Origin: a virus
DNA: 23,596 nt
Virus record (IMG/VR): IMGVR_UViG_3300022198_004007
Coordinates: 1 to 23,596 of that record
Reading direction: 5' to 3' (one strand)
In this document: one piece after another, positions 2,200 through 14,816 of the stretch
Layout: each line of letters opens with the position of its first letter
Numbering within the stretch: position 1 is the first letter of the stretch
Notes under the pieces: generated by a model
What the model was told of the DNA's origin: nothing
Database searches by the model: none
The model's input: only the letters and a program-made list of their open reading frames with translations
Position numbers and translations under genes: made by a program

Positions 2200-3642
2200 T
2201 CACATAAGGTTCTTAACAAGAACTCTTCTGTAATAACGGTTGGTGTCTGCTGCAAGGCGACCAAGTGTGGTTGATGCGCCAGAAGCAAGTCCACCTTCAG
2301 CGAATGGATTAGCAACAAGACCATAACGAGTCTTAAATCCAATCTTAGGCTGGAAGGAGTTTTCTCCAACTGCACGTACCATCTGTAGGGGTACATATGG
2401 GCAGTAGAATAGACCTGCATCATAAGGGGAAGAACCCTTATAACCTACAACATAATACTGGTTACCACCAACGTTGCCAGCACTACCAGAACGATTAGTT
2501 AGGTTAGCAGCATATGGGTCAATATATACGCGATACTTGCCCATTAGAGTACCAGCAAAGGTATTGCCAGTATCATCTACGTTGAGGTTTGCATTTAGTG
2601 CAGGGGTATAATCAAGTACACCTGCCATGGTTAGAGCGGAAGCAACATCTGCGGAGCAGAGGATGATGTTGCCCTTTCCACGACGAGTTCTGGTTGCGAT
2701 TTGGTTAGCATCGCGCTCGATTTGGAAAAGTAGACCCTTGAACTTCTCAACTGACCAACGACCGTTGGAGTCAACATCAAGGTCAAACTGACCAGAAACA
2801 GCAACATTCTGCTGAGCACCAGCTTCTGCAGTGATGTAGATGCTACGGATAACTTCACGGTTGATTTCAGCAAGAATCTCGCTAGAAAGAATGTTAGCAA
2901 GTTCTGCCTCAGCATTTAGACCGTGGATTGCCTTGAGGTCTTGAGCGAGTTCTAGTGAATACTCAGCTTTGAGTGCTCTTGACTTTGCAGCAACGGTGAT
3001 CTTCTCGATTGAGAAGGCCATTTCGTTGAAACCTGCATTGTCACCATAACCTAGACCTTCTGCATCTCCAGTGTTCATACCACCAGAAACGTTATACTCG
3101 CCAGAAGCGTTTAGAAGACCTGGGTTGGTGTTGCCAGATTGTGCTGCAGTTGTACCAATACCGACATCACCAGATGGGCTGGTATATCCAGTTTGTGCAA
3201 GATCGCCAGCAGTATTCTGACCAGAGAAGCGAGTATCTGCTTCATCAAATAGTGCTTCCTGACCATTCTGATCAGTATAGCGTGAACGCATTGCAAAGAT
3301 TAGTCCAGTAGGACCAGTCATTGGTTGAACGCCAGCGAGGTCATAAGCGACCAGGTTAGGCATAGAACGTCTGATTAGAGAAATCAGTACGGGATCAAAA
3401 CCAGCTACAGGACCGCCTTCAGCGGAAGCACCTGTAAATCCACCAGTGCCAGCTGACATTGTTGGAGATTCAGTAAGGAATGAACCTGACTGATTGAAAG
3501 CTTGTTGCTCTCTTAGGAATTTTTCTTGGTTTTCTAGCAGGACAGCAGTTACAGCCTTTCTATGTGAATCTTTGATTGGATCAAGACCCTCATGGTTAAG
3601 AAGGGGTGCCCACTTTTCCTGCAATCTTTCTGATTGAAACAT
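2200..3642 (-). CDS. 23: Major capsid protein gp23
   Basis: Forms the hexamers of the head shell. The product is 480 aa (T4 gp23 is 521). It has the typical myovirus gp23 blocks: an N-terminal helical propeptide starting MFQSERLQEKW, then FDPVLISLIRRSMPNLVAYD and GVQPMTGPTGLIFAMRSRY. The propeptide ends with FLTE-S at residues 55-59, matching the gp21 protease rule (L/I)-x-E before A/G/S, so cleavage is expected after Glu58. AGAGGT upstream of ATG 3642 is a good ribosome-binding site. The base composition is visibly richer in G+C than in neighbouring genes, as expected for codon-optimised, very highly expressed protein. A strong terminator follows. No late octamer was seen directly upstream, so it is probably read from the gp22 promoter. 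Confidence 0.97.
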   Translation of the reverse strand: MFQSERLQEKWAPLLNHEGLDPIKDSHRKAVTAVLLENQEKFLREQQAFNQSGSFLTESPTMSAGTGGFTGASAEGGPVAGFDPVLISLIRRSMPNLVAYDLAGVQPMTGPTGLIFAMRSRYTDQNGQEALFDEADTRFSGQNTAGDLAQTGYTSPSGDVGIGTTAAQSGNTNPGLLNASGEYNVSGGMNTGDAEGLGYGDNAGFNEMAFSIEKITVAAKSRALKAEYSLELAQDLKAIHGLNAEAELANILSSEILAEINREVIRSIYITAEAGAQQNVAVSGQFDLDVDSNGRWSVEKFKGLLFQIERDANQIATRTRRGKGNIILCSADVASALTMAGVLDYTPALNANLNVDDTGNTFAGTLMGKYRVYIDPYAANLTNRSGSAGNVGGNQYYVVGYKGSSPYDAGLFYCPYVPLQMVRAVGENSFQPKIGFKTRYGLVANPFAEGGLASGASTTLGRLAADTNRYYRRVLVKNLM

Positions 3643-3683: not shown

Positions 3684-4832
3684 TCAGTTTTTAGCAATTT
3701 TAGAAGCCATCTGTAGATATGCATTCATCTGCTCTGAGATATACTCAGCATTGATATCTGCTTCTTCAGTTAGATTTTCTGCCTTTGCTTTTGGGGTAGA
3801 AGTTTTTGATGGGAAATATGATTCCCTCAAAGCTACCAACTTTTCACGATATTCTTTTTCACTTCCAAACTCAACACTTTCAGCAAGTGAAGCGAGCTTT
3901 TCTTTTTGAGAGAGTGCTAGACCCTCTGAAACGTTATCAAAGATTCCATCAGCAACCGACTCTGCAAGACGCTTGTTGAGTGAAATGTTCTTCTCAATTT
4001 GCTCGTTGAGTTTTGTCTCCATTTCATCAAGTTTTTCTACCATACTATTAAGTACATCATATTTCTCTTCAGGGATTGATACATAATGTGCTTCAAAAAG
4101 GTCTTTTAGACCATTCATGAAGGACTCAGAGAGTTCTTCTTTTAGACCTTTTTCAACAGAGAGTTGATTTTCAGAAATCCACTCATCTGCAACATACTCT
4201 AGATATGAATCGACACGTTCTTGAAGTGCTGTTTTAATTTCAGCAACTTCTTCTGCTAATGCATTTTCATAATGCTCTTCGAGTTGCTCTTTGATTTCAG
4301 CAACTTTAGACTTTAGTGCAGATTCAAATACTAACTTTGCCTTTTCTTTAAATTCTTCGGAGAGTTCGACTTCTTCAGTATTTAAGATAGCATTAACATC
4401 TTCTTCGATATCATACTCATCTTCAACTTCTTCTGTCTCTTCTTCAACTTCTTCATCGACTTCTTCTTCAGCAATCACTTCTTCATTATCAATTTCATCT
4501 TCTTCCTCAGAGATTAATTCATCATCAATCTCTTCTTCTTCTTTAACTGCTCCAGCAGGAAGTTTTTCCATTGGTTCAGCAGGCTTAGCGCCTCTGTTTA
4601 CTACATCCTTCACAGTCTTTAGTGAAGGCTCTTTAAATTTTGCTGAATCGTCGTCAGACTTGTAGTTTTCTGGTGTAGGTCCACCAAGATCCTCCCAGGA
4701 TCCACTTTGACCTGCTACTGCTCCAGCAGCAAGCTTTGGCATTGGATCTCCAGCTTTAGCGCCAGAATTAACGGCGGTCTTGGATTGAGCAGTGCCTACT
4801 TCCATTTCTTGTAAGTTGTTTCCACTAGACAT
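3684..4832 (-). CDS. 22: Prohead core scaffold protein gp22
   Basis: Main internal scaffold of the prohead, normally digested by gp21 during maturation. The product is 382 aa (T4 gp22 is about 270). Order of parts: a low-complexity N-terminus with a duplicated 19-residue motif (21-39 and 78-96), a very acidic Glu/Asp stretch at about 97-155, then long heptad-like helices rich in Glu, Lys and Leu to about 340. Candidate gp21 sites of the form L-x-E before A or S occur at LFEA, LAES (twice) and LRES. CGGAG lies upstream of ATG 4832. It is placed between gp21 and gp23 as in T4, with a perfect late octamer upstream. Confidence 0.9.
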   Translation of the reverse strand: MSSGNNLQEMEVGTAQSKTAVNSGAKAGDPMPKLAAGAVAGQSGSWEDLGGPTPENYKSDDDSAKFKEPSLKTVKDVVNRGAKPAEPMEKLPAGAVKEEEEIDDELISEEEDEIDNEEVIAEEEVDEEVEEETEEVEDEYDIEEDVNAILNTEEVELSEEFKEKAKLVFESALKSKVAEIKEQLEEHYENALAEEVAEIKTALQERVDSYLEYVADEWISENQLSVEKGLKEELSESFMNGLKDLFEAHYVSIPEEKYDVLNSMVEKLDEMETKLNEQIEKNISLNKRLAESVADGIFDNVSEGLALSQKEKLASLAESVEFGSEKEYREKLVALRESYFPSKTSTPKAKAENLTEEADINAEYISEQMNAYLQMASKIAKN

Positions 4833-4906: not shown

Positions 4907-5557
4907 TTATAGTGAATTTAAGAAGTTATTAAATAAATCAATCTTATGTTCATCAAGTTTTTTCTGATCAACAAGATGATTTACTCTTCTTTTTACTTGC
5001 TCAGCATATTTTTCGCGGAGAATTCCACCCTCCCATACCCACTCTTTTCCTTCCATAATTCCCTGAACAAATGCATCAGGTGCTGAAGGATCAGCAACAA
5101 TATCAGCTGCTGTAGCAAGCATGAAATCTTCACCTACTTGTTTATATCCTTCTTTTGTAGTGATTAAAGAACCAATACCACGAGAAGAAACTCCAAGAGT
5201 AACTCCATCTTTAAGTAAAGATTCTGCAATCTTACCCATTGGAGTTGAAAGAATTTGTGCTTTTCCAACAAAATTGTTTCCTTCTTTTTGAAGATCTACA
5301 ATCTTATGTGAAACTCTATCAAGATTTACAGTAGGTCCATCTGGATGACCAAGCTCTCCAAGAGCACGTCCCTTTAAAACATATTGTTCATTATAACGCT
5401 TCACTTCCTTTTCCATAATGGACATAGGATACATACGACCATTTCTATTAACACATTCTGCTTGTAAAAATGGTCCTTTGATATAAAGTTTAGCTTCCTT
5501 TCCAGTTCCTTCTGTAATAAGCTCTACTTTTTCAATCTCTTCTCTTATTAGTTTCAT
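4907..5557 (-). CDS. 21: Prohead core protease gp21
   Basis: Serine protease that cleaves scaffold, capsid and internal head proteins after (L/I)-x-E during head maturation. The product is 216 aa, close to T4 gp21. The expected catalytic His lies in GELGHP (His71) and the catalytic Ser in GVSSRG (Ser124 or Ser125). AECVNRNGRMYP at 33-44 is another family-like block. Residues 13-17, LITEG, match the protease's own cleavage rule, so self-processing after Glu16 is plausible. It starts 6 bases after the preceding 92 aa gene and precedes gp22. Confidence 0.93.
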   Translation of the reverse strand: MKLIREEIEKVELITEGTGKEAKLYIKGPFLQAECVNRNGRMYPMSIMEKEVKRYNEQYVLKGRALGELGHPDGPTVNLDRVSHKIVDLQKEGNNFVGKAQILSTPMGKIAESLLKDGVTLGVSSRGIGSLITTKEGYKQVGEDFMLATAADIVADPSAPDAFVQGIMEGKEWVWEGGILREKYAEQVKRRVNHLVDQKKLDEHKIDLFNNFLNSL

Positions 5558-10696: not shown

Positions 10697-10960
10697 CTAC
10701 CAATCAGGATATTCCCACTTATCATTGACTTTAGGTGTCATTCTATTTGATATTACCCTTTTTATTGTACATTCTTTACACTCATATGCATAAGAAGATA
10801 GATTGTATTTATTCCTTCTTATTTTATAAAATCCATCAATAAGATCTTTTCTTTTACCACATTTTTTACAAGTTCTTTCTGTTAAATATAAATGCTCTTC
10901 ATTAAAATGGTTTGATAAATCCATATTATCTATAATCCCACATGTACGACATGTCACCAT
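10697..10960 (-). CDS. Small zinc-finger protein overlapping the end of gp17
   Basis: Unrecognised small protein, 87 aa from ATG 10960. It has three Cys pairs and a His pair: C4-x2-C7 with H18 and H23 (C2H2-like), C31-x2-C34 in TCKKCGKRKDL, and C61-x2-C64 in ECKECTIKR; the last two probably form a zinc ribbon. It may bind nucleic acid or protein. The start is uncertain: ATG 10960 keeps the first finger and overlaps gp17 by 35 bp, ATG 10966 or 10987 are longer, and ATG 10924 starts just after the gp17 stop but loses both N-terminal cysteines. No good Shine-Dalgarno sequence decides between them. The gene sits between terminase and sheath, so a packaging or regulatory role is possible but not shown. 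Confidence 0.7.
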   Translation of the reverse strand: MVTCRTCGIIDNMDLSNHFNEEHLYLTERTCKKCGKRKDLIDGFYKIRRNKYNLSSYAYECKECTIKRVISNRMTPKVNDKWEYPDW

Positions 10961-12572
10961 ATTCATCAGTAAACCATCTATCGCCATCAGGATCTACAAA
11001 AGAGGATCCTTCATCTAAACCATCAACAATAAAACCAAATGGGGACATATCCTGTTCTATTTGGTTTTTTTGTTCTTCATATAATCTTTTTCTAATATCT
11101 TGATCTGTTAGTTCTTTAAAATAATCTTGAGCAACTAACCATGCATAAATCACAAGACACATTGCTAGGTCATCATTACATCCATCTTCAGCTTCAAATG
11201 AATTATTTTTTTGTATAAATGTAGTTAACTCTGAGATTATTTCATAGTCATTAAATATTAGTTTATCTTCTTCAATCATAGTTTTTAGATTGAGAGCACC
11301 AACTTTTTTTACGGTTTTAGACATTTTTACACCAAGTTGAGTCTTTTTACCACTAAAACCCTGACCTACAATTTGACCTGCTCTACCTCTCATAGAACAC
11401 ATAAGAAGATTTTGATATTCTAAATCGTATTGGATAATACTTGCTACTTGATCTCCAATATCATTAACTTCACAAAGAATATACGCTCCATTGTAGTTTT
11501 TTGCAACGTCATATATGATATTCGGAAATAGCATAGGTTTTATCTCATTATTTCTATACTTTGCAACTACTTTATGAGGAAATTCTGTTATATCTACAAC
11601 TATAAATGCAGAATAATCTTCACTAACTCCTCTAGCTACGTCTACCGTAATAACATAATCGTGATTTTTTTCTACTTCCTTATAAACATCTAATCCAACA
11701 TTTTGTTTGATTGGATTATCATATATCATAGATTTGAGTTTGCTAGGTGCAATAAGAGTATCAACAGAACCTAGAAACTCACATTCAAACTCAACTTTAA
11801 ACTGCTGCTCTGAAGTGTTTGCTATAGTTTGAGCTTTCCATGCAGCATCTCTTCCAGGAACTTCGGACCAATGTACTTCTGTTGGAATATATTCGTTTTT
11901 CTTTCTTTCTGCATCATGCCAAAATCTATAAAAATGGTTCATACCGTGAGGAGTAGAAACCATGATTACTTTTGTGTTTTTACCAGAAGTAATAGTAGGA
12001 TAAACAGAGGCAAAAAACGAGTCAGCAATGTGATTTGGGACAAAAGCGAACTCGTCGAGAAAGAGGATGTTAAACGACATACCTCGGACAGCACTTGCAG
12101 ACGTAGAAGCAGCCAAAATCTTTGATCCATTTTCTAACTCAATGTTACCTCTATTCCATGCTATGATACCTTGTTGCATCCATTTAGGCAAATTTTCATA
12201 AGCAGTTGCTAATCTACCAAGAAGTTCTCTTGCAGTTGCCGCTTTGTTTGCTAGAATACCAATATTAACGCTATCATTAAAAATCAGATAATGTAACAAA
12301 TATGAAACTACAGTTGTAGATTTACCAGTCTGCCTTGGCATTTTGCAGATATTAAATCTATTATTGTGGAAATTTTTGATTAAATTTTCTTGAAAGTCGT
12401 ATGGATGAAACTGAGTTAGACCTTCATCAAGAGAAACAATCTTAATATAGTTATGTGCAAAATACACAGGATCATCTTTACATTTAATAAATTCTTCAAT
12501 TTGATCTTGCGTAAACTCAATCTGTGTATTTGCTTTTTTTAGATTGGGATTACCTAAGTATACTTCACTCAT
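10926..12572 (-). CDS. 17: Terminase large subunit gp17 (packaging ATPase and nuclease)
   Basis: Motor that translocates DNA into the prohead through the portal and cuts the concatemer. The product is 548 aa (T4 gp17 is 610). ATPase domain: Walker A PRQTGKST at 79-86, Walker B ILFLDE at 169-174, coupling motif STPHG at 206-210. RNase H-fold nuclease domain: Asp311 in TVDVARGVSEDYSAF, Glu368 in CEVND and the Asp pair at 467-468 in GCNDDLA, matching the T4 acidic triad. ATG 12572 overlaps the TGA of the upstream gene (ATGA), indicating coupled translation. Unusually, three genes separate it from gp16. Its 3' end overlaps a small zinc-finger gene. Confidence 0.97.
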   Translation of the reverse strand: MSEVYLGNPNLKKANTQIEFTQDQIEEFIKCKDDPVYFAHNYIKIVSLDEGLTQFHPYDFQENLIKNFHNNRFNICKMPRQTGKSTTVVSYLLHYLIFNDSVNIGILANKAATARELLGRLATAYENLPKWMQQGIIAWNRGNIELENGSKILAASTSASAVRGMSFNILFLDEFAFVPNHIADSFFASVYPTITSGKNTKVIMVSTPHGMNHFYRFWHDAERKKNEYIPTEVHWSEVPGRDAAWKAQTIANTSEQQFKVEFECEFLGSVDTLIAPSKLKSMIYDNPIKQNVGLDVYKEVEKNHDYVITVDVARGVSEDYSAFIVVDITEFPHKVVAKYRNNEIKPMLFPNIIYDVAKNYNGAYILCEVNDIGDQVASIIQYDLEYQNLLMCSMRGRAGQIVGQGFSGKKTQLGVKMSKTVKKVGALNLKTMIEEDKLIFNDYEIISELTTFIQKNNSFEAEDGCNDDLAMCLVIYAWLVAQDYFKELTDQDIRKRLYEEQKNQIEQDMSPFGFIVDGLDEGSSFVDPDGDRWFTDEYGDMSYMWDYR

Positions 12573-13303
12573 AATTCGTTTTTAATCAACAGTAAATCAA
12601 AAGAAGCGGTATATCTACCATTATTACTTCTTGTCGTTAATCTTACATCTATATCAGAATGTTCTGTTATTTTTTGTGGAAATGCAAACTTATAAAAATA
12701 TTCTCCACCAGATCCACTAACTTCAAAGGTATGTCCAACCCTAAATGCTTGTCCAATCGTATTATACCTAATCATCATAAATCCAGTAGCATCTGCACCT
12801 GCCTGAGCACTACATACACCCTGATATAAGTATCCAGTATATCCGTTTGGTATCGTATATATTGACATTAGAGTTTGTCCAAGTCCTGCGTTAATCCTAA
12901 GAACTTGTGTTCCTTCTCTAGAAAAATTTAATTCTCCTACATTTGTGGATCCAGTTTTTACGTATCCACGAAAAACTCTTTTAAAAATTTTAGTTCCAGT
13001 AACAGTTCCTGTACTTGATAATGTGAAATCTTCTTCAATAATATCCCAATTTGAATCTAGACCAACAATAGTTACAACTTTACTATTATCATCTGCACCA
13101 ACTTGTTCTGCTACAAGAACCCCAGGAGTATTAAAAGCACTCCAAGGATAAAGAGTATCTCCCTTATCCCAAACTGTTGCGGTAGTATTTGTTGATTGTG
13201 ATGGAGTTGCTCCGAACTTGTGAATGGTTGATGCTCCACGAACTTTTCCGCGAGCAACATTTAAATCAAATTGTTCATCCCAAATAAAGCTATCAAAAGA
13301 CAT
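12569..13303 (-). CDS. Hypothetical beta-rich protein, probably virion-associated
   Basis: A 244 aa protein of unknown function. It is Gly/Ser/Thr-rich with many short strand-like segments, for example VRGASTIHKFGATPS at 22-36, WDKGDTLYPWSAF at 45-57, FTLSSTGTVTGTKIFKRVF and YKFAFPQKITEHSDIDVRL near the end. No signal peptide, membrane helix or enzyme motif is seen. The composition resembles phage surface or decoration proteins. It is the last gene of a three-gene cassette inserted between the terminase subunit genes and is coupled to gp17 by an ATGA overlap. It begins 2 bases after the 105 aa gene. The role as a structural protein is an inference. Confidence 0.75.
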   Translation of the reverse strand: MSFDSFIWDEQFDLNVARGKVRGASTIHKFGATPSQSTNTTATVWDKGDTLYPWSAFNTPGVLVAEQVGADDNSKVVTIVGLDSNWDIIEEDFTLSSTGTVTGTKIFKRVFRGYVKTGSTNVGELNFSREGTQVLRINAGLGQTLMSIYTIPNGYTGYLYQGVCSAQAGADATGFMMIRYNTIGQAFRVGHTFEVSGSGGEYFYKFAFPQKITEHSDIDVRLTTRSNNGRYTASFDLLLIKNEL

Positions 13304-13305
13304 AA

Positions 13306-13623
13306 CTAATCAATCCATTGAAGTTTTGCTGGATGGTATCTTTGTACTTTTTCTATATTTGGATTGTTATCTTCAACTGGATATATGTTATGAACAACTG
13401 CTCCAGGATAATCTTTTTGCAACATTTCACACAATTCAGGTTTTGATGGAATCCCAGTTTTTGTCAACATAGAAAATCTATGCAAACTTCCCTGCCACAT
13501 TACATCTGCAAGATATTTCTCAGATATATCCTCGTTTTTTTGATCTGAGTTAATGTAAATATTACCAGTAAAATCTCCAGAAATATTTACAGATTCTGAA
13601 ATAAACTGTTTAAATGATTTCAT
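13306..13623 (-). CDS. Small protein with capsid-targeting-like N-terminus; paralogue of the 238 aa neighbour
   Basis: A 105 aa protein of unknown function. The N-terminus MKSFKQFISES resembles the capsid-targeting sequence of T4 internal head proteins (MKTYQEFIAEA), including an I-x-E-S gp21 cleavage site after Glu10. Residues 38-83 form a compact domain with W43-Q-G-S, H48, PS at 59-60 and YPGA at 72-75. The same pattern occurs in the upstream 238 aa protein, so the two are paralogues. AAGGAAG lies right against ATG 13623, an unusually short spacing. If the targeting sequence is real, the protein is packaged in the prohead core and trimmed. Confidence 0.78.
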   Translation of the reverse strand: MKSFKQFISESVNISGDFTGNIYINSDQKNEDISEKYLADVMWQGSLHRFSMLTKTGIPSKPELCEMLQKDYPGAVVHNIYPVEDNNPNIEKVQRYHPAKLQWID

Positions 13624-13637
13624 CTTCCTTAGTGTTA

Positions 13638-14354
13638 TTATTTTGCGTTATTGTCCCAGTATTTTGTTCCATATGCACATTCTGATCTTGCTTCCATTTT
13701 TTTACATTTAGGGCAATATTTTTTTTCTGATTCTTCAGAGACTTGGACTATTGGTTTTCCTGGCTCGTAATCAGATACATGAAAACTGTATACTCGTGCT
13801 CCTGGATATACTTTTTCTATTTCAACTTGAATATCCTTTCTACTTGGAAGTTTTGTTTGTGGGAAAAACATCTTTATTCCATGATAAGAACCTTTCCAAG
13901 TTAAGTTAACCAATACAATATTTCCAGTTTTTGCTGGAATTCTAATCGCTTCGGAAACTAATGGATCTGGTGTGATTAAATCAACAACCTCTAAAAAAGT
14001 ATTTCCATTAGCATCTTCGATTGTTACTTTATTTTCTTTTTCTTCAACATTTAAAGTCTTGGGATAGTTCTTATCCCCACGCTTTGCTGGCGCTTTTCCA
14101 CGCTTTCTTTTAGCCCAAACATTTGGCCAGAGTCCTTCATTTTTTTTCTCTTGAAGGATTTCTTCTACGATTTTATCTACTAAAGAGACTTCATTTTTTA
14201 TAAAACTTGGAATATCTACTCTTGCAGAAGGACGTAATTTCGCTTTAGCAACATTGGATTCATTTTCATTAGGTGATTTTATCATCTTACGAATTTTGTT
14301 CTGTCTTTTTGCAGAAGAATGCTCTGGTTTATTGATTGGGTGATTTAAACTCAT
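13638..14354 (-). CDS. Hypothetical basic protein with a C-terminal Cys cluster
   Basis: A 238 aa protein of unknown function. N-terminal third: basic, with helical segment VDKIVEEILQEKKNEGLW and a strongly basic linear motif NVWAKRKRGKAPAKRGDK at 78-95 that looks nucleic-acid binding. Residues 148-193 contain W153-K-G-S, H158, PS and YPGA, the domain shared with the 105 aa gene downstream. The end has C214-P-K-C217 and C226, possibly a partial zinc site. It lies between gp16 and the 105 aa gene, so a link with packaging or head maturation is possible. AAGGAAG lies upstream of ATG 14354 at rather long spacing, within the loop of an inverted repeat. Confidence 0.8.
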   Translation of the reverse strand: MSLNHPINKPEHSSAKRQNKIRKMIKSPNENESNVAKAKLRPSARVDIPSFIKNEVSLVDKIVEEILQEKKNEGLWPNVWAKRKRGKAPAKRGDKNYPKTLNVEEKENKVTIEDANGNTFLEVVDLITPDPLVSEAIRIPAKTGNIVLVNLTWKGSYHGIKMFFPQTKLPSRKDIQVEIEKVYPGARVYSFHVSDYEPGKPIVQVSEESEKKYCPKCKKMEARSECAYGTKYWDNNAK

Positions 14355-14359
14355 GGTTT

Positions 14360-14384
14360 TAAATATTCTTCCTTTTAATATTTA
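14360..14384 (-). promoter_or_regulatory. Inverted repeat enclosing the ribosome-binding site of the 238 aa gene
   Basis: Arms 14360-14367 and 14377-14384 are perfect 8 bp complements (TAAATATT with AATATTTA on the minus strand). The 9 nt loop contains AAGGAAG, the likely Shine-Dalgarno sequence. The 5' arm overlaps the late-type octamer. All pairs are A-T, so the stem is weak. Confidence 0.35.
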
Positions 14385-14386
14385 TT
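14379..14386 (-). promoter_or_regulatory. Putative late promoter for the inter-terminase cassette (AATAAATA)
   Basis: On the minus strand AATAAATA overlaps the gp16 stop codon, 25 bp before ATG 14354. It could drive the 238, 105 and 244 aa genes and gp17. Confidence 0.4.
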
Positions 14387-14816
14387 CTTCTTTTATTTTT
14401 TGTTGTTTCAATAGTTTTGCTAAATCTGCTGTTGATCCAACAAAAAGTGCATTTGTAACGTTTGTTGGAGATTTTTTTGTTCTATCCTCATCAATATCTT
14501 TCATTTTTTTCTGAAGATCTATAAGTTTATCTGTAGTATCTGATACATTTTTTATGAGTTGACCAAGCACTTCATATGCTCTTGCAGATTCTGTTTCTTG
14601 AGCTAACTCAAGAACACTATCAATAGCTTCTTGACCTTTTTCTATAATGGAATATAAATTTCCTCTAGAATATTCATAATCTTTTTTAATATGATCTATT
14701 TCCTTAGAAATTTTATCATCACTAACCACTTCAACATCTTTTTTTATAGTACATTCATCTTCAGAATCCTCTGAAATATTAAATGCATCGTCTAAACCAT
14801 CGAATGCTTTCTTCAT
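14382..14816 (-). CDS. 16: Terminase small subunit gp16
   Basis: Ring-forming regulator that recognises packaging substrate and stimulates the gp17 ATPase. The product is 144 aa (T4 gp16 is 164). Layout matches: an acidic N-terminus (DDAFNISEDSEDE), a central long-helix region from about 45 to 110 (DYEYSRGNLYSIIEKGQEAI, then ETESARAYEVLGQLIKNVSD and a Lys-rich DLQKKMKDID), and the ending block NALFVGSTADLAKLL, comparable to NATVFVGSPSEL in T4. It starts 9 bases after the gp15 stop. No strong Shine-Dalgarno sequence is seen. Confidence 0.9.
   Translation of the reverse strand: MKKAFDGLDDAFNISEDSEDECTIKKDVEVVSDDKISKEIDHIKKDYEYSRGNLYSIIEKGQEAIDSVLELAQETESARAYEVLGQLIKNVSDTTDKLIDLQKKMKDIDEDRTKKSPTNVTNALFVGSTADLAKLLKQQKIKEE

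Follow-up and report, generated by a model that had tools for sequence, protein, structure and literature searches.

The 105-aa open reading frame between the terminase genes of this cyanophage fragment raises the question of whether a protein that begins like the internal proteins of phage T4 is brought into the head by the same kind of signal. Throughout, the window is the whole stretch of 23,596 nucleotides that was analysed. The sequence-only reading of the gene had proposed a packaged internal head protein. The N-terminal likeness to the T4 tag was confirmed by the analyses below, and a capsid-targeted prohead protein trimmed by gp21 is the interpretation towards which we lean.

Genomic context of the 105-aa gene

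The window is part of a T4-like cyanophage genome; its minus strand carries gp16, two small genes, a gene for a 244-aa protein, and gp17 to gp23; gp18, gp19, and gp20 were assigned by position and by likeness to phage S-SCSM1. The open reading frame is exactly as first noted, with an ATG start that is preceded by a GGAAG stretch resembling a Shine-Dalgarno ribosome-binding site. Its placement between the terminase genes was correct, although two other genes share the interval. The relevant features are as follows (slashes in motifs mark predicted cuts here and below):

2200..3642, minus strand: gp23 major capsid protein (sequence)
3684..4832, minus strand: gp22 prohead core/scaffold protein (T4_CASP, E 4.5e-75)
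4907..5557, minus strand: gp21 prohead protease (Peptidase_S77, E 1.3e-38)
10926..12572, minus strand: gp17/terL, terminase large subunit (PF03237, Pfam)
12569..13303, minus strand: 244-aa neighbour, phrog_8198 (PHROG profile match)
13306..13623, minus strand: 105-aa coding sequence, member of phrog_1742, a family of unknown function (E 5.5e-35, residues 1-99)
13378..13521, minus strand: residues 35-82, beta-beta-alpha-beta domain (AlphaFold2 model)
13522..13593, minus strand: residues 11-34, low confidence, probably a flexible linker (AlphaFold2 pLDDT)
between 13594 and 13593, minus strand: predicted gp21 cut after E10 (sequence)
13594..13623, minus strand: residues 1-10, MKSFKQFISE, capsid-targeting-like tag (sequence pattern, conservation)
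13638..14354, minus strand: 238-aa untagged neighbour with a related domain at about residues 140-191 (BLASTP, hhalign)
14382..14816, minus strand: gp16/terS, terminase small subunit, phrog_445 (profile matches)

All phages inspected carry the phrog_1742 gene within the cluster of head and packaging genes, and the S-SCSM1 gene found at the same place as the 244-aa neighbour (_31) is labelled as a virion protein. Both gp21 and gp22, which such a tag needs, are encoded in the window. The gp23 of the window has a similar predicted gp21 site, FLTE/S (E58/S59), placed by comparison with FLTE/A of T4 gp23. Scans for promoters, terminators, and repeats around the 105-aa gene were uninformative.

Conservation of the N-terminus

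The protein begins with MKSFKQFISES, while IPII and IPIII, taken from the T4 record, both begin with MKTYQEFIAEA. Five of the 11 residues are identical (M, K, F, I, and E), and most other positions are conservative replacements (S/T, F/Y, Q/E, and S/A), in agreement with the parallel drawn from the sequence alone; the I-x-E site before a small residue is likewise present, by sequence, as FISE/S. Relatives of the phrog_1742 family were found in 135 INPHARED records, all of them cyanophages, and in 220 IMG/VR stretches. Among 55 distinct sequences, M1, K2, F7, S9, and E10 never vary. Position 4 holds either F or Y, position 8 holds one of I, L, and M, and residue 11 is S with a single exception. 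Residues 11-26 are also well conserved, and because conservation extends over residues 12-26 it does not by itself single out the tag. A Pfam search of the protein returned no domain, and a sequence search of solved structures returned no significant match.

Occurrence of the motif in other proteins and phages

The DNA pattern ATGAARNNNTWYNNNNNNTWYHTNNNNGAR, which encodes MKx[FY]xx[FY][ILMF]xE, matched the window once, at the 105-aa gene, against 0.01 matches expected from shuffles. The window record comprises 23.6 kb only, and the genome-wide search for other N-termini of this type was made on the genomes of relatives, with a positive outcome: 19 matches in eight whole phage records and 33 in another 27 records, that is, 52 in 35 records, against none for the reversed pattern in the same records. 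In T4, the pattern recovered ipII and ipIII, in which a capsid targeting sequence is known (PMC9958956), and the unstudied gp61.1. The latter (L113:967-1131) is an uncharacterised protein of 54 aa with the CTS-like N-terminus MKTFKEFIKED.

The cyanophage matches fell on unrelated proteins. In S-SCSM1 they were the phrog_1742 homologue and an NMNAT, in S-CREM2 the cytidylyltransferase gp154 and gp6 (an S-AdoMet lyase by Pfam), and in S-SZBM1 the phrog_1742 member SSZBM1_191 and SSZBM1_192; S-SM1, where the gp16-gp17 interval differs, had a single match, the cytidyltransferase T4-GC190. The NMNAT N-termini kept the motif in 78/78 and 47/47 loci (125 in total, which are related and therefore not independent events), with the E followed by A, S, or G. 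A second pattern, of the MRFxxFIxE type, found the S-SZBM1-type NMNAT, and 3 of its 10 matches were spurious (short ORFs). In environmental contigs, the first pattern marked basic proteins with a net charge of up to +33, one of which, by its first 19 residues, weakly matched the PHROG for an internal head protein (E 0.0085). It also marked a glucosaminidase (PF01832, E 8.8e-17; L276, reverse strand from 1501) and a possible GNAT acetyltransferase that fell short of the Pfam cut-off (L281, reverse strand from 460), both of which are candidate head-loaded enzymes. The case for the tag rests chiefly on this recurrence in unrelated proteins; judged from these sequences, the tag seems to be a capsid targeting signal of cyanophages at large, beyond the 105-aa gene.

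Several further sequence features were observed in the tagged proteins and their neighbours. A second short module after the tag, approximately LGLxSDGHGGWYDxxGEFVAKTxxGxLxFY, is common to the otherwise unrelated NMNAT, a kinase, and a gp12-type protein. It is carried by the S-SCSM1 NMNAT (L098:1501-2727), by gp12 and gp14 of S-CREM2 (L093), and by the S-H34 kinase and the gene that follows it (L298:2995-6177), and phrog_3561 matches it as well. The S-CREM2 gp12 (L093:7704-10313) is annotated as CRISPR Cas9/Csn1, a name that looks doubtful, and no Pfam domain was found in it; a tag-like LRFASFMAEAAV lies about 18 residues into this protein, and its S-H34 counterpart likewise has FSSFLKEAEE. 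In S-SZBM1_194 (L090:11253-13376), an internal FITYREFIAEGN, distant from the N-terminus, is similar to the T4 CTS. Finally, two virion-listed proteins, S-SCSM1_97 (L085:43121-43306) and S-CREM2 gp160 (L091:35343-36236), both carry GxxGFTGxxAxxGPxAGYDPLM, a stretch similar to the N-terminal arm of the major capsid protein in its mature form.

Association of the motif with virion proteins

Published virion proteomics detected the NMNAT/cytidylyltransferase in S-SM1, S-SCSM1, S-SZBM1, and S-CREM2 (PMC3037559, PMC9602691, PMC9146016, PMC10665884). The S-AdoMet lyase is another of the tagged proteins that mass spectrometry has placed in virions. In S-CREM2, six proteins matched the motif at the amino-acid level, against 0.05 expected when N-terminal residues were shuffled, and 5/6 annotated motif proteins are in the virion list (Fisher P=0.003), the one outside it being gp175. 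When S-CREM2, S-SCSM1, and S-SZBM1 were pooled, 7/11 motif proteins were in virions (stratified exact P=0.0014), or 7/9 (P=0.0003) when the two phrog_1742 homologues were left out; since the motif was loosened after some virion proteins had been seen, these P values are indicative and not preregistered. Virion status was taken from Table 1 for S-SZBM1 and from GenBank labels for S-SCSM1, because the virion list of that paper is a figure. The tag on the 105-aa protein is thus probably real, because in related viruses unrelated enzymes that occur inside particles bear this same label.

The phrog_1742 homologues themselves, SSCSM1_30 and SSZBM1_191, were absent among the detected virion proteins of S-SCSM1 and S-SZBM1. 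SSCSM1_30 has only two convenient tryptic peptides, but SSZBM1_191 has six, and S-SCSM1 proteins of 61 and 69 aa bear a virion label, so that the absence carries some weight; small proteins are nonetheless easily missed.

Charge and predicted fold of the protein body

The trimmed protein (residues 11-105, 95 aa) is acidic, with a net charge of -4, in contrast to those tagged proteins that are basic. A basic, DNA-associated mature protein is typical of the T4 internal proteins without strictly defining them. No sequence link was detected between the mature 105-aa protein and the T4 internal proteins, and by homology or charge it is not one of them. The proposal of a packaged internal head protein therefore divides: the tag is upheld by the same motif on unrelated virion-detected proteins and by the recovery of ipII and ipIII, while packaging in the mature virion and injection stay conjectural in view of the undetected homologues and the acidic charge, and no effector function could be assigned.

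The AlphaFold2 model had a mean pLDDT of 67.5, with 81-90 over most of the core (residues 35-82) and values below 50 for residues 1-20 and 22-32, the N-terminus forming an arm, modelled at low confidence, that stands away from the folded domain. The beta-beta-alpha-beta domain is common to the untagged 238-aa neighbour (BLASTP E 2e-08; hhalign probability 85.6%) and is related by fold to DUF6321 proteins and to SSCSM1_29, a 517-aa virion protein of S-SCSM1.

The best PDB fold match in Foldseek was T7 Gp2 bound to Escherichia coli RNA polymerase (E 0.39, prob 0.51), and two annotated Gp2-like inhibitors were in the list from the viral library (E 0.012 and 0.092). A virion-delivered inhibitor of the host RNA polymerase would fit these matches, but the fold is small and common, and hhalign against T7 Gp2 gave a probability of 0.05%, with no profile similarity. 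Gp2 residues R56 and R58 are needed for binding to RNA polymerase (PMC3778932), and they have no counterpart here, as the last strand of the domain (VVHNIYP) contains no arginine. The weak Foldseek lead was consequently rejected, and we regard such an inhibitor as scarcely credible.

Proposed mechanism and alternative explanations

Residues 1-10 would constitute a T4-type capsid targeting sequence, an amphipathic segment (MKxFxxFIxE) that would recruit the 105-aa protein to the gp22 core of the prohead, gp22 being the presumed docking partner. The gp21 protease would then cut after E10 and leave inside the head a mildly acidic protein of 95 aa, made of the linker and the beta-beta-alpha-beta domain. 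The data establish the sequence, its conservation, and its statistical association with virion proteins; recruitment, cleavage, retention, and delivery of this protein are steps that we infer, of which prohead entry and trimming at E10 have the best support. The tag would be one case of a signal that T4-like cyanophages widely use to load unrelated cargo, such as NMNAT, S-AdoMet lyase, a kinase, and others.

The main rival, a serious one although we consider it unlikely, accepts the tag and takes the protein for a transient part of the core or scaffold, which would enter the prohead with gp22, be digested or lost as the head matures, and be neither retained in the virion nor injected. T4 gp67 and gp68 are components of this kind, and the absence of homologues from two virion proteomes, the acidic charge, and the location of the gene within the head and packaging cluster of all phages inspected would all suit such a role. 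On the other hand, the digestible core proteins gp21 and gp22 were themselves detected in the S-SCSM1 and S-SZBM1 proteomes, and the 105-aa protein has one clear (I/L)xE-small site besides the tag, so that there is no obvious reason to expect complete digestion.

A neck, tail-fibre, or packaging accessory of the gp16-gp17 interval, whose N-terminal segment binds a partner other than the prohead core, seems improbable to us. The S-SCSM1 neighbours are labelled as tail fibre and virion proteins, and the presence of the domain in SSCSM1_29, besides the untagged neighbour, indicates that it can occur in virions without this tag; yet the same N-terminus is found on NMNAT, S-AdoMet lyase, and the T4 internal proteins, for which the head is the only common partner. 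That the likeness reflects chance or a general bias of phage N-termini is very improbable: the motif is short, S-CREM2 gp175 carries it outside the virion list, and the second pattern had its share of spurious matches, but the contrast with the reversed and shuffled controls and the invariance over 55 relatives contradict this explanation, unless the recurrence of the motif on unrelated proteins is itself artefactual.

Implications and comparison with known systems

Whether T4-like cyanophages employ a general tag to fill the head with diverse, interchangeable cargo that is injected as infection begins is, in our estimate, evenly balanced. If so, the cargo would include NMNAT, S-AdoMet lyase, kinase, glucosaminidase, basic proteins, and the 105-aa protein, and the puzzling enzymes of cyanophage virion proteomes would be explained. 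Those who published the proteomes were unable to decide between true cargo and carry-over from the lysate for enzymes such as NMNAT, S-AdoMet hydrolase, and kinases (PMC9602691, PMC10665884), and the common conserved T4-like tag on them argues for true cargo. The tag could then serve as a sequence signal by which head-loaded proteins are predicted from genomes alone, and phrog_1742, with its 135 cyanophage records, gains a first working hypothesis. A literature search found no report of such a tag in cyanophages, although much of the subscription literature was outside its reach.

The 105-aa protein matches its own family, phrog_1742, over the full length, with nothing to set it apart. T7 Gp2 resembles it weakly in fold over about 50 residues and is not a tagged protein. 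The cyanophage NMNAT/cytidylyltransferase (T4-GC190; phrog_395) bears the same tag in the same phages, but it is an enzyme with a second N-terminal module, is found in the virions of four phages, and is encoded elsewhere in the genome. The protein differs from T4 IPII and IPIII in having no detected similarity beyond the tag, in being acidic where they are basic, in its location in the gp16-gp17 interval, and in the absence of its homologues from two virion proteomes. It resembles them in the tag of 10 residues, with a basic residue at position 2, aromatic residues at 4 and 7, a hydrophobic residue at 8, E10, and a small residue at 11, and in the presence of gp21 and gp22 in the phage; it probably behaves as the CTS-tagged proteins of T4 do.
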